Origin: Synechococcus sp. UW69
GTDB lineage: Bacteria > Cyanobacteriota > Cyanobacteriia > PCC-6307 > Cyanobiaceae
Length of the DNA: 64,000 nucleotides
Direction: 5' to 3'
Assembly (NCBI RefSeq): GCF_900474185.1
Contig: NZ_UCNW01000006.1
Location: forward strand, 62,001-126,000
The notes under the pieces are model-generated. The model was not told the origin of the DNA, did no database searches, and saw only the letters and a list, made by a program, of their open reading frames with translations. Numbering within the stretch: position 1 is the stretch's first letter; every line of letters begins with the position of its first letter. Both the position numbers and the translations under genes were made by a program. Below, piece after piece: positions 58,744 to 62,788 of this stretch.

Positions 58744-59088
58744 TTATCCAGTTACTGTTTTTACTCCTTCATAATAGCCTCCAGCACGAAAATCGAAACG
58801 TTCTACTTTATCCTCTTTGGCACATGTTGTCTGTGAATAATGTAGGAGTGTGCTAAATCCTTCGGGTACCATTTTTGGGCATAACCTGCCTACATCATTG
58901 GCAAATGGGCAGAAATACACACCTGCCCATCGATTCAGGAAACGACCCTTTATTTCATCCGAAAAGATAAATCCATGTTGATCTGCGAGCTTGAGGATTT
59001 CCTCGGGCTCAGCTTCCTGGAAAAGAGCTCTGAATGGCAAATCTTCTTCTAGAACTTCAAGAAAGCGTATGAATTCAGCACGCGACAT
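58744..59088 (-). CDS. Nif11-like domain protein of the CA4 block
   Basis: 114 residues. The N-terminal half (SRAEFIRFLEVLEEDLPFRALFQEAEPEEILKLADQHGFIFSDEI) matches the Nif11/nitrile hydratase leader-like fold (EFxxFLExLExDxxLRxxLxxA, ILxLAxxxGFxFS). The C-terminal half has Cys in VYFCPFANDVGRLCPKM. It is divergent from the mpeW-type gene, and two copies of the TATCC-N5-TTAYCA motif lie just upstream. Not named here; it may be one of the unknown genes linked to CA4 islands. Confidence 0.7.
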   Translation of the reverse strand: MSRAEFIRFLEVLEEDLPFRALFQEAEPEEILKLADQHGFIFSDEIKGRFLNRWAGVYFCPFANDVGRLCPKMVPEGFSTLLHYSQTTCAKEDKVERFDFRAGGYYEGVKTVTG

Positions 59089-59104: not shown

Positions 59105-59120
59105 TATCCATATTTTACCA
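59105..59120 (+). promoter_or_regulatory. Candidate FciA/FciB site 1 (TATCC-N5-TTACCA)
   Basis: TATCCATATTTTACCA. It differs from the exact motif at one position and sits 21 bp before site 2, i.e. two helical turns in direct orientation, as AraC-family proteins often require. Confidence 0.5.
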
Positions 59121-59125
59121 GCATG

Positions 59126-59142
59126 TATCCGCTTCTTATCAG
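59126..59142 (+). promoter_or_regulatory. Candidate FciA/FciB site 2
   Basis: TATCCGCTTCTTATCAG. It matches the site before the fci genes (62772) in 17 of 18 bp when one more base is included. It lies 38 bp upstream of the Nif11-like ATG. Confidence 0.6.
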
Positions 59143-59351
59143 AGTTGTTTTGCTTATGGAGGGTCCAGTGGGCTTTTCATTCTCCTTGGATGTAAGGGCC
59201 CCGTCCGCGTTGTCAGGCTTCTGTGCAAAAAGCAAAGTATTTAATCAAGCTTGATTTTGAGATTGGCTTGTTGCTGCTTGGTTCCTATGCAATGGATGAA
59301 ATTCTCATCGTGCTCTGATCACTTGCTTCACTTTATTCTTCTTAAGCTAGA

Positions 59352-59367
59352 TATCCATTAATTATCA
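59352..59367 (+). promoter_or_regulatory. Candidate FciA/FciB site 3
   Basis: TATCCATTAATTATCA, an exact TATCC-N5-TTATCA match, 84-99 bp upstream of the mpeW-type start. Confidence 0.55.
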
Positions 59368-59450
59368 ATTTTGCAGGTGCATGGGTCAATTCTTACCAAT
59401 TCATCGTTATAGGTAAATTCCGCTGTTAGAAATAAATATACGCGTTTCGC

Positions 59451-60644
59451 ATGGTGCCTAACTCGCAGAGATTTGATACTTTATTTTCGTGGATGGATGA
59501 ACAGCAGGCCATTAGATTGCTTTCACAAAATATTCGTACTCTCGATAATCCTGGCATTAAGTATATTGCAGCGACAAGGCTGGGAGCTTGTTCTTCGCGA
59601 GACTCTCTTGACGCGTTAGTTTTAGCTGCCACTGGGGACAGAGAAAATATTTTTGACTCTATTACACGCCGCAAATCTATTGAAGCACTAGGACGTCGAC
59701 GTGATCTCAGTACATTGCCTACCATTTATGATGCTATGTCTAGTAGCGATGAGCAGACGATTGTTAATGCGGTTGATACGTTGATTAATTTTGGCGTTCC
59801 ACTTGATTCTCAGTTTAAATCATCTCTTTTAAAGATCATTCAAGATGGCTCAGATGTACTTAAGCGTGTTGCAATTCAGTGCTTTAGTCGTTTGGAGATG
59901 CATGACAGTAATGGGATAATCTCTAAGCAACAGAGCAATCCAAATATATTAGTTAATGGCGCATCTATCGCTTATTCAATAAGAGTTGAAGGTGATAAGA
60001 GCAAGTTGCAGACTCTTACAGATCACCTCGAAAATACCAATGTTATTTATCGGAGATCGTCGGTTATTGATATTGGTGATGCTGGTGAGCCGTCTCTTTT
60101 GTCGAATATTGCAAAAGTAGCCGTTTCAATGCCCTTAAGAGCTAAAAGTGCGTTCAAGATAACTCCGAAGATTAAAACTGAATCCCAAAGAAGCCTGATC
60201 AATCAAATGTTGCAGGATGATTCTCGTCATCTCTGTTTCACGCAAAGTGTTGATGTACCTGTTGATTTAAAAGAAGTCTGCGACTTACTAAGGCATAGAG
60301 ACGAAGAACGGCAGTATTCGGGTGCAAAAACCTTGTTTACTTGGCCGGTTGCTGGTCTAACGGAGGCAATCAACTCTATTTGGGAGAATCATGGCTCCGA
60401 CTATGGCGTTCACTATCAAGTCAACTGTTTGATCTCTCAACTTGGATTAACAGAATTATCTTTCATTACCAAGGAATCATTATCAGAGCCAGCTCCACAG
60501 TATGCAAAATCAAAAATTGCAGCCACTTGGGGATGCTTAAACTTAGGTTTATCCGAATGTCGCAGTGAGATTGAAAATCTATTTATGATGTCTAGTTGGG
60601 AACCTCTTCGATGGACATGTGCAGAGGTTTTACGCAAGTTGTAG
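59451..60644 (+). CDS. mpeW: MpeW/MpeZ/MpeY-type phycoerythrin II lyase
   Basis: 397 residues of HEAT repeats. NPGIKYIAATRLGACSSRDSLDALVLAATG, ITRRKSIEALGRRRDLSTLP, HGSDYGVHYQVNCLISQLGL and EPLRWTCAEVLRKL match the MpeY/MpeZ/MpeW lyase family, which attaches (and in MpeZ isomerises) a bilin at MpeA Cys83. Placement inside the rod cluster next to the two AraC regulators suggests the CA4-B lyase MpeW, a phycoerythrobilin ligase; the symbol rests on context, not on a tested alignment against MpeZ. Confidence 0.68.
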   Translation: MVPNSQRFDTLFSWMDEQQAIRLLSQNIRTLDNPGIKYIAATRLGACSSRDSLDALVLAATGDRENIFDSITRRKSIEALGRRRDLSTLPTIYDAMSSSDEQTIVNAVDTLINFGVPLDSQFKSSLLKIIQDGSDVLKRVAIQCFSRLEMHDSNGIISKQQSNPNILVNGASIAYSIRVEGDKSKLQTLTDHLENTNVIYRRSSVIDIGDAGEPSLLSNIAKVAVSMPLRAKSAFKITPKIKTESQRSLINQMLQDDSRHLCFTQSVDVPVDLKEVCDLLRHRDEERQYSGAKTLFTWPVAGLTEAINSIWENHGSDYGVHYQVNCLISQLGLTELSFITKESLSEPAPQYAKSKIAATWGCLNLGLSECRSEIENLFMMSSWEPLRWTCAEVLRKL

Positions 60645-60676
60645 AGGGTTGATCTTTTATTGTTTTGATTAGTTGT

Positions 60677-61642
60677 TTAGAAAGGTAACTTGTACCGCCT
60701 CGATTTTTCTATGGTTTGACTTGGAAGTTCGCCAAAGGCAGTGTAGTAACGTCGCGCATATCTTCCTTGATGTTTAAACCCATATTTAATCGCAATATCA
60801 CGAATTGAGTATAGTTTTAATTTCTGACGAGCTTCCTTGTTGAGCATCATTCTTCTCGATTCTTCTAGCCTAATATGTGTCATCAGCTCAATGATTCCCA
60901 TGCCAAAGAATTCCTGACAGACGCGATATAATGATGCCTGGCTTGTGTTGATATGTTTGCAGACTTCAAGCAACGATAGAGGAGATTCCATAGACTTTTG
61001 GCTGTGGGCAAGGTTGATGATTTCTCTTAATTGACCGATGTTCTTTTGTCCGTGACTATTTTGTTCACTCATTGGTTCTTCGAGGCATGCTATTACTAGG
61101 TCAAAGTATTTTTCTGGCGTCTGAATTCCTGACGATACCTCTTTTCTTGCTAATCTTTTGAGTTGGCCTAGGGCATTATTATTGGAATAAACTCCCTGAT
61201 CACTCGTGAGTCTTTCGAGTCCATCGTATGCTTTGCAGTTTTTAAGCAATTCAAGGAGTAGTTTTTTATCAATCATGCAACCAGTACTAGAGCATTCACT
61301 GGAATATTTTCCCCATGCATTCCCTGGTACTGAGTTAATGGTTCCAAACCCAGCTAGGCTATTTTGGGCCATTTTAAATCCATCACAATATCCAAAGGCA
61401 TCTTGAATGTCTATTTTTGGAGTAATCCAATTGAAGTCGATGGTAACACCATTGCCCCATCCCTCGTACAGCAAGGTTTTGTTGGCAGATATTTCTGCAA
61501 GTGATACTTTATTGGCAGTTGCGGCTTGCATCGTATAGATACCATTGCCACCATCTAGCTGCGTTATTTTTGTAAGTTGACCCAGTTTTGCAAGCTCTTC
61601 AGAAATCTCTAGTGGATCTCGAAATTCAAAAGTTGTTTTCAT
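60677..61642 (-). CDS. AraC-family regulator, FciA/FciB type (downstream copy)
   Basis: 321 residues. A C-terminal AraC DNA-binding domain (SLLEVCKHINTSQASLYRVCQEFFGMGIIELMTHIRLEESRRMML, then YSIRDIAIKYGFKHQGRYARRYYTAFGELPSQTI) follows an N-terminal sensing domain. It begins 3 bp after its paralogue; the N-terminal FEFRDPLEISEELAK aligns with VFCDTLEMEEFCKAH of the other. Tandem AraC genes beside the mpeW/mpeZ-type lyase match FciA and FciB of marine Synechococcus CA4 islands. Which is A or B is not decided here. Confidence 0.78.
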   Translation of the reverse strand: MKTTFEFRDPLEISEELAKLGQLTKITQLDGGNGIYTMQAATANKVSLAEISANKTLLYEGWGNGVTIDFNWITPKIDIQDAFGYCDGFKMAQNSLAGFGTINSVPGNAWGKYSSECSSTGCMIDKKLLLELLKNCKAYDGLERLTSDQGVYSNNNALGQLKRLARKEVSSGIQTPEKYFDLVIACLEEPMSEQNSHGQKNIGQLREIINLAHSQKSMESPLSLLEVCKHINTSQASLYRVCQEFFGMGIIELMTHIRLEESRRMMLNKEARQKLKLYSIRDIAIKYGFKHQGRYARRYYTAFGELPSQTIEKSRRYKLPF

Positions 61643-61645
61643 GTT

Positions 61646-62677
61646 TTATTCTCCCTTCCAAGCACTGAATGAATATATATTCCTGTTTGATCGATCTATT
61701 GTTTGACTGGGAGTTTCTCCATAATACGAAGAGTAGGATTGCTCAAACTTTTTCCAGTTTTTGAAACCATAGTAAAGTGCTGTTCTTTTCTTTGTAAATT
61801 CTTTGAGTCCGGTTGAGGAATGGGGAGTTAAAAATGCCTTGCGCGTCTGCTCCAAACGTATTCTTCTGACAAGCTCAATTACATCCATGTTGAAAATTCT
61901 TCGACATGTAGTATTTAGAGAGTCTCTGTTTGAATTGAGGTATTCAGTAATTTCTTCGAGTGTGATTGGCGGCATTCCTGCACGATCTTCGTGAATTAGT
62001 TTGACCATATCTTCTATGAGGTCTGTTGACTCACACCGATGTGCATCAAATGTTGATTCATTATCTTCGTTGTCAAGAAATATGATTGCTAGATCGTAAA
62101 AGGAATTTGGTTTCTTTGATGGCTGGCCATTGAAATGATCATGGAATAATTTTTTGAGTTGAGTGCTGGCATGATCATCCGAGTCAATTCCAATGCATTC
62201 TTCGAGCCTTGCATAGGCATTAAAGGCATTCAATTTATTTATTCTTTCTTGTAATTTATTCCATTTTAAACTCATGCAGCAAAGCTCTTCATTTGCTCCC
62301 ACAATGTCCCAGATATTTCCTCCTGTTTTGTTGATCCGATTGAATCCGGCAATACTATTTCTCGTCATCTGGTGGCCGCTTATCGTTGTAAGTACCTCCT
62401 TATTTTTTGTCGCTAAACTATCTAGCCAGCAGAACGATACTGATTTTGTATTGGCTTCTTCCTCGTAGAGAAGTGTTTGGTTGGATTTGAAAATTTCAAG
62501 ATGGACATCTTGAATTGGTGAGCAAGTGGTCTGCGTTTCTAGAATTCCGGTGCTTAACTGAGTTACATTGCAGCCGAAGCTGGAGGTTGAATGATATTCC
62601 TCAAAATGTGCCTTGCAAAACTCTTCCATTTCGAGCGTATCGCAAAAAACATAATTTCGCGATCGTTTTCTTCGCAA
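61646..62677 (-). CDS. AraC-family regulator, FciA/FciB type (upstream copy)
   Basis: 343 residues from TTG 62677, which keeps the segment aligning with its paralogue; ATG 62629 (MEEFCKAH) would drop it. The AraC domain is MPPITLEEITEYLNSNRDSLNTTCRRIFNMDVIELVRRIRLEQTRKAFL with YYGFKNWKKFEQSYSSYYGETPSQTIDRS. First gene of the two-gene operon. A candidate operator lies 95-112 bp upstream. Confidence 0.78.
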   Translation of the reverse strand: MRRKRSRNYVFCDTLEMEEFCKAHFEEYHSTSSFGCNVTQLSTGILETQTTCSPIQDVHLEIFKSNQTLLYEEEANTKSVSFCWLDSLATKNKEVLTTISGHQMTRNSIAGFNRINKTGGNIWDIVGANEELCCMSLKWNKLQERINKLNAFNAYARLEECIGIDSDDHASTQLKKLFHDHFNGQPSKKPNSFYDLAIIFLDNEDNESTFDAHRCESTDLIEDMVKLIHEDRAGMPPITLEEITEYLNSNRDSLNTTCRRIFNMDVIELVRRIRLEQTRKAFLTPHSSTGLKEFTKKRTALYYGFKNWKKFEQSYSSYYGETPSQTIDRSNRNIYSFSAWKGE

Positions 62678-62771
62678 GACCTTTCAGCTTATTTTTTCTA
62701 CTCTATGGTTTTTGGGGCTCATGTGTACGAAGCTTGATGTTTTTCTTGAAGATTAAATTTTCACTTTCTGC

Positions 62772-62788
62772 TATCCGATTCTTATCAG
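62772..62788 (+). promoter_or_regulatory. Candidate FciA/FciB site 4
   Basis: TATCCGATTCTTATCAG, 95 bp upstream of the fci operon start; nearly the same 18 bp as site 2 upstream of the Nif11-like gene, in the same orientation relative to its gene. It would allow autoregulation. Confidence 0.6.

Follow-up and report, generated by a model that had tools for sequence, protein, structure and literature searches.

We describe here a 16-bp motif, TATCC-N5-TTAYCA, in a 64,000-nucleotide stretch of the Synechococcus sp. UW69 genome (the window) which holds an island for type IV chromatic acclimation (CA4) of the CA4-B type, with the genes unk10, an mpeW-type lyase, fciB and fciA. To what has been described for such islands we add this motif and its occurrence in both of their types, CA4-A and CA4-B. 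We consider it very probable that this motif is the operator of the AraC-type regulators which the island itself encodes, most likely read directly by FciB, with FciA as its antagonist. An operator of FciA and FciB had been proposed in an initial annotation made from the letters of the window, and sequence comparison now lends the proposal support, the motif being conserved in 28 islands and showing no excess elsewhere.

The pattern has four exact matches in the window, at 59105, 59126, 59352 and 62772, and none in 100 dinucleotide shuffles of it. The whole 2.37-Mb genome holds the same four copies, all within the island, and a single match to the reversed control pattern. This bears out two claims of the initial annotation, that the motif stands upstream of all three CA4 transcription units (the Nif11-like gene unk10, the mpeW-type gene and the fci operon) and that far fewer than one match is expected by chance. 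The copy at 59105 had been described as carrying one mismatch, which we reject: TATCCATATTTTACCA fits the pattern exactly, so that there are four exact copies and not three plus one. The 21-bp spacing of the tandem 59105/59126 and the identity of 17 out of 18 bp between the sites at 59126 and 62772 were both confirmed. All four sites lie on the + strand and are thus co-directional with mpeW and opposed to unk10 and fciA. A cross-type comparison free of circularity was made by scanning the CA4-B window with a matrix built from six distinct CA4-A sites only. The four window sites took ranks 1 to 4 in the 64 kb, with scores of 23.8, 23.3, 16.2 and 16.2, followed by a next best of 12.7; in 200 shuffled windows the top score was 13.0 on average and 19.6 at most, and the fifth best never exceeded 13.0. 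With two mismatches allowed, the pattern gave 11 matches in the window against 12.5 expected, so weak copies are not callable by pattern alone and candidates of that kind were dropped. An extended pattern with two mismatches matched 11 times in the whole genome, four times in the island and seven times outside it; the reversed control also gave seven, which leaves no target outside the island of the source genome at this setting.

The presence of the motif before the orthologous genes of other CA4 strains had been set beforehand as a check. A search for FciB in 400 genomes of the family, drawn from a larger group, returned 28 genomes with an FciB of at least 50 percent identity, UW69 included, and an FciA homologue adjoins FciB in every one of them. 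We examined the surroundings of these 28 islands, which by gene order comprise 19 of CA4-A and nine of CA4-B, and of one further island with fragments only (L063 in G075), which is not counted among the 28. The CA4-A order is unk10, fciA, fciB and fciC, followed by mpeZ in 17 of 19; a search identified fciC in the 12 CA4-A genomes that belong to genus g34, in L044 and L047 it was seen as an open frame, and in the remaining islands it was recognised by eye from its start sequence. Each of the 19 CA4-A islands has one exact copy between fciB and fciC, directed towards fciC. Among the CA4-B islands seven of nine have exact copies, and the other two (L042 and L043) have copies with one or two mismatches only. 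An exact copy is thus found in 26 of the 28 islands that carry fciAB and an exact or one- to two-mismatch copy in all 28. The arrangement of the sites in CA4-B is conserved as well. Both copies of the unk10 pair are present in 9/9 islands (copy 1 exact in seven and with one mismatch in two, copy 2 exact in six and with one mismatch in three), 21 bp apart in eight islands and 20 bp in one. Copy a upstream of mpeW is found in eight (three exact, five with one mismatch) and is followed in 8/8 by copy b at a spacing of 31 bp; the site before fciA is found in eight (three exact, two with one mismatch and three with two). The ninth island in these last counts is L043, where the interval between unk10 and mpeW is short and a single pair lies between both genes, with no separate mpeW sites and no fciA site. 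Copy b, at 59383 in the window, has four mismatches to the pattern and a leave-class-out score of 5.4–8.8, less than the 10.2 reached by the best non-site in the window, so its assignment comes from conservation and spacing only. The leave-class-out and CA4-A-only scores are independent of the sites scored, while the all-site matrix scores, including those of promoters without fciAB, come from a matrix which contains them. Autoregulation of fciAB, which had been part of the original proposal, appears likely only for CA4-B, where the site precedes fciA in eight of nine islands; in CA4-A the unk10–fciA interval is without a site in 19/19 islands (best score 7.1, compared with 14.6–25.6 for the sites that built the matrix).

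Several islands deserve a separate remark. Two islands of the CA4-A type, L055 (G239) and L058 (G131), have the exact motif ahead of fciC, but mpeZ was not found in their stretches; the fciA of L055 is also broken, at 121 aa. L063 is a remnant that retains only fragments of fci genes (fciA, fciB and one like fciC), and none of its motif copies is good. L066, a contig filed as a Crocinitomicaceae metagenome-assembled genome, encodes an FciB 82% identical to that of the window and is probably a mis-binned Synechococcus contig. The mpeY/mpeQ promoter was considered as a further target and rejected, as no site was found there in eight of nine CA4-B islands (best score 8.8). In the ninth and most divergent of them, L043 of G070, an exact motif (L043:1232) lies about 85 bp upstream of an mpeY/mpeQ-like gene.

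Could such a distribution be the result of chance, or of shared ancestry of island DNA that has no function? The islands are indeed related by descent, but in the CA4-A promoters the information per position drops from 1.77 bits in the motif to about 0.3 bits in the flanks, the same motif stands in different promoter contexts, and the shuffled windows contain no match; we regard this explanation as hardly credible. A second question is whether the motif is read by a chromosomal regulator from outside the island, for instance a response regulator for light or redox state, with FciA and FciB acting only indirectly. Three genomes without fciAB do retain one exact site at unk10, as would be expected of such a regulator. 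A global regulator should, however, have more sites. In 65 genomes a hand tally gave 36 exact copies within islands, three beside unk10 in genomes lacking fciAB and 29 elsewhere, against 32 matches of the reversed control; the tally covers two genera, and the third (G024, G070 and G097) is not part of it. The motif is therefore not frequent elsewhere without a link to CA4 genes, an outcome that had been named in advance as one that would speak against the operator. Moreover, FciA and FciB are the regulators common to both island types, whereas fciC is reported only from CA4-A in passages of PMC3877281 and PMC10904595. Control by an outside regulator thus seems to us improbable. The context was determined for 16 of the 29 outside copies: 12 fall within open reading frames, two of which are only 61–63 aa long, and four lie between frames.

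Some of the copies outside islands are located before genes. In G222 (L112:2299) and G283 (L121:2253) an exact motif stands about 140 bp before a gene resembling LysR; the two genes share 75% identity, and the LysR_substrate domain scores below the cut-off in one and above it in the other. Among 31 genomes, a match of more than 40% identity to this gene was found only in G222 and G283, and since both of these carry fciAB the gene may be an additional target. A distant FciC paralog of G222 that is encoded outside the island (46% identity) likewise has an exact motif (L111:2166), about 250 bp before it.

The promoter of fciC in CA4-A islands raises the question of whether the motif is no regulator site at all and instead belongs to the core promoter, as an unusual -35 element used by one sigma factor. 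In 19/19 copies a TARAAT-like hexamer, presumably the -10 box, lies 7 bp downstream of the motif, at positions 24–29 from its start, and the resulting 17-bp spacer puts TATCCA at the place of the -35 hexamer. Across 18 non-redundant promoters the hexamer reads TAAAAT in nine and TAGAAT in four, and otherwise TAGGAT, TAAACT, TACAAT or TATAAT; its information is 1.62 bits per position, nearly that of the motif, with 0.33 and 0.31 bits in the two flanks. At the site at 62772, TTGAAT was also seen by eye at the same distance in L035 and L036. In CA4-B islands, on the other hand, the copies point in the direction opposite to unk10 and fciA, those before unk10 and mpeW form pairs with a spacing of 21 or 31 bp, and no conserved -10 box was seen by eye at the distance found in CA4-A; the lack of excess elsewhere in the genomes likewise disagrees with a general promoter element. 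We therefore consider a core element very unlikely. The CA4-A fciC promoters contain by eye a second conserved, TTAAGCTTNGTAAA-like element 18 or 29 bp before TATCC, a distance which differs by 11 bp between lineages. It was rejected as a second half-site because a form of it is also seen in islands without fciAB, and it is probably something else.

If the motif is an operator of the island's own regulators, which of them reads it? FciB exceeds the cut-off in HTH_18 and in HTH_AraC (28.7 bits), while FciA falls just short of it in HTH_18. The first recognition helix of FciB, QASLYR (Q235–R240 in the window protein), is invariant in 28/28 sequences, and it ends in R240, which would correspond to a base-contacting arginine in the MarA–DNA contacts. 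In the second recognition helix six of ten positions are invariant. The corresponding numbers for FciA are 0/6 and 3/10; they were counted in 27 of the 28 sequences, the broken one of L055 being omitted, and one alignment held 26, with L044 (which contains an N) omitted as well. A structural model of FciA (predicted local distance difference test, pLDDT, 76; predicted template modelling score, pTM, 0.75) gave ToxT and Rns as its best matches among solved structures, with E-values down to 1.9e-7, a template modelling (TM) score below 0.4 and a root-mean-square deviation of about 12 over the whole chain. According to the model, a two-domain AraC-type layout is likely for FciA, while we are unsure of the arrangement of the domains. 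These matches and the domain scores of FciB and FciA place AraC-family regulators next to the sites. The invariant recognition helix and the Pfam scores, set against the variable helices of FciA, favour FciB as the better candidate reader. The opposite assignment, in which FciA would be the main reader and would activate mpeZ from the site in blue light, we find unlikely, though less so than the explanations weighed above. Mutants in fciA are reportedly fixed green and those in fciB fixed blue, the two proteins acting oppositely, and the first of these phenotypes would suit an activating FciA. So would a passage of PMC9705338, according to which every island codes for one activator and one repressor. 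Against it, the FciA helices vary at positions that are invariant in FciB although the operator is strongly conserved, and the CA4-A site covers the -35 region and the spacer. In addition, strain BIOS-E4-1, which lacks fciAB, is locked blue with mpeZ expression equal between the two colours, as given in the passages on this strain in PMC3877281.

Genomes without fciAB, a status taken from the FciB search, provide a further view of the motif. Six of them have unk10 and mpeZ (G277, G295, G301, G307, G317 and G327), and the exact site occurs in none of the six. Five of the six have fciC, and its promoters contain remnants of the motif with three, four and two mismatches in G277, G317 and G295 and, by eye, five and four in G307 and G327; TAGGAT, TATGGT or TATAGT is still seen by eye 7 bp past the remnant. 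The closest Unk10 relatives of these genomes, G283 and G271, have both fciAB and an exact site. In ten unk10 promoters of the CA4-B type from genomes without fciAB, site 1 is exact in none and site 2 in three, and the TGATAAAAT-like stretch which is likely the unk10 -10 box remains, by eye, in eight of the ten. The three genomes with an exact site 2 (G147, G089 and G204) form one lineage nested among fciAB-bearing ones on the Unk10 tree; G273, not on that tree, has kept site 2 with one mismatch. The tree, of 46 genomes, requires at least five changes of fciAB status and does not distinguish gain from loss. Three further genomes without fciAB, G174, G261 and G267, have an unk10 that has diverged, and mpeZ is absent from the stretch seen; they belong to neither the six islands nor the ten promoters, and no exact site was found there. 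We give all of these results as counts and not as probabilities because the genomes are related. The motif tends to decay where fciAB is lost and, for the unk10 promoters, it does so mostly but not always.

A number of observations weigh against an operator of FciA and FciB. The two weaker window sites, at 16.2, score within the range of the shuffled-window top scores, and the site at 59383 is weak once its own class is left out of the matrix. In CA4-A neither unk10 nor fciA has a site, and L043 is without those of mpeW and fciA. For mpeW and fciA the assigned -10 boxes are conjectural. The exact site 2 kept by G147, G089 and G204, together with the nearly intact one of G273, means that decay is incomplete or that another protein uses the site, and G295 retains a copy with two mismatches before fciC. 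Five of the six mpeZ islands without fciAB form one clade on the Unk10 tree, and several genomes lacking fciAB are incomplete (70–87 percent for G273, G317, G307 and G327, with unk10 of G273 at a contig end). The -35 region itself is altered in islands without fciAB, so a locked-on mpeZ need not imply the loss of a repressor. Lastly, the ToxT and Rns matches of FciA have low TM-scores over the whole chain, and the FciB model is poor (pLDDT 64) and was not used for a fold search.

The features of the window are listed in Table 1. The gene names, and the placement of the CA4-B island between mpeU and cpeZ, follow Humily 2013 (PMC3877281), whose passages on the islands describe unk10, fciA, fciB and mpeW in that location.

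Table 1. Genes and putative regulatory sites of the CA4-B island in the window (HTH, helix-turn-helix)
Feature	Position	Strand	Remarks
unk10	58744..59088	-	Nif11-domain protein, 114 aa; PF07862 30.4 bits (cut-off 23.8)
likely unk10 -10 box, TAAAAT	59112..59117	-	overlaps operator copy 1; suggested by the sequence
putative operator copy 1, unk10 pair, TATCCATATTTTACCA	59105..59120	+	opposite strand contains TAAAAT, likely the unk10 -10 box
putative operator copy 2, unk10 pair, TATCCGCTTCTTATCA	59126..59141	+	21 bp from copy 1; over the likely unk10 -35 region
putative operator copy a, upstream of mpeW, TATCCATTAATTATCA	59352..59367	+	
probable degenerate copy b, upstream of mpeW, GGGTCAATTCTTACCA	59383..59398	+	31 bp after copy a; missed in the initial annotation
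mpeW-type phycobilin lyase, HEAT repeats	59451..60644	+	named from island context as in PMC3877281
fciB, AraC-type regulator	60677..61642	-	HTH_18 52.7 bits (cut-off 33.6); canonical, invariant first recognition helix
fciA, AraC-type regulator, TTG start	61646..62677	-	HTH_18 30.3 bits, below cut-off 33.6; recognition helices variable
putative operator copy upstream of the fciA-fciB operon, TATCCGATTCTTATCA	62772..62787	+	

We next consider how the sites could work. Operators of the AraC/XylS family, such as araI1-I2 and those of RhaS/RhaR, are built of half-site units of about 17 bp for two helix-turn-helix units and are arranged as direct repeats about 21 bp apart, at or near -35. By analogy, the island motif would resemble them in the size of the unit and in its proximity to -35. 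Its spacing agrees with theirs in part, with direct repeats of about 21 bp at unk10, a 31-bp pair at mpeW and a single unit in all 19 CA4-A promoters, and it differs from them in its consensus and in the likely core-promoter position in CA4-A. The 16-bp unit may be read as two TATC boxes 11 bp apart, so that one AraC-type monomer could place both of its helix-turn-helix units in successive major grooves, and units paired 21 bp (unk10) or 31 bp (mpeW) apart would lie on the same face of the helix with room for a dimer. FciA and FciB are said to act oppositely, which would set them apart from the RhaS/RhaR cascade. As in RhaS/RhaR, two genes of the AraC type stand next to each other and act on promoters in their neighbourhood, a comparison drawn in PMC3877281. 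The passages on islands in that paper name no operator, and just as the initial annotation knew of none for FciA or FciB, we found none in the open-licence literature searched.

The position of the sites relative to the promoters differs between the two island types. The lone CA4-A unit covers the -35 region and the spacer in the promoter of fciC(-mpeZ), and a protein bound at this place would be expected to keep RNA polymerase out. For the CA4-B type, a possible mpeW -10 box, TGTTAGAAAT, begins 26 bp past the end of copy b, and this guessed box would leave both mpeW copies upstream of the core promoter, a place from which a bound AraC-type protein can recruit polymerase; at unk10 the pair would cover both likely core-promoter boxes. 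We hypothesize, tentatively and as a possible explanation among others, that the opposite light responses of CA4-A and CA4-B arise from an operator moved relative to the core promoter. FciB would be active in green light, repressing mpeZ in CA4-A and activating mpeW in CA4-B, with green-light pigment as the outcome in both, and FciA would act as the antagonist of FciB, its own reading of DNA having been largely lost. In the expression passages of PMC3877281, mpeZ is 6.7- to 333-fold higher in blue light and mpeW 36- to 1,150-fold higher in green light. These published data, together with those for BIOS-E4-1, fit a green-active repressor at mpeZ and activator at mpeW, and the authors of that paper had already suggested that fci products repress mpeZ in green light. 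In a passage of PMC10904595, fciC is suggested as what may cause the two types to respond in opposite ways. The position of the operator could be an alternative explanation, in which fciC would be dispensable for the inversion.

In marine Synechococcus the light-colour switch of type IV chromatic acclimation is widespread, and chromatic acclimaters make up more than 40 percent of the population (a figure from the passages of PMC10904595). The regulators of the switch are known, and a putative 16-bp operator placed in 28 islands makes tests of binding, mutation of promoters and reporter assays direct. If our interpretation is true, the position of the operator would provide a simple and testable reason why CA4-A and CA4-B respond to light colour in opposite ways.

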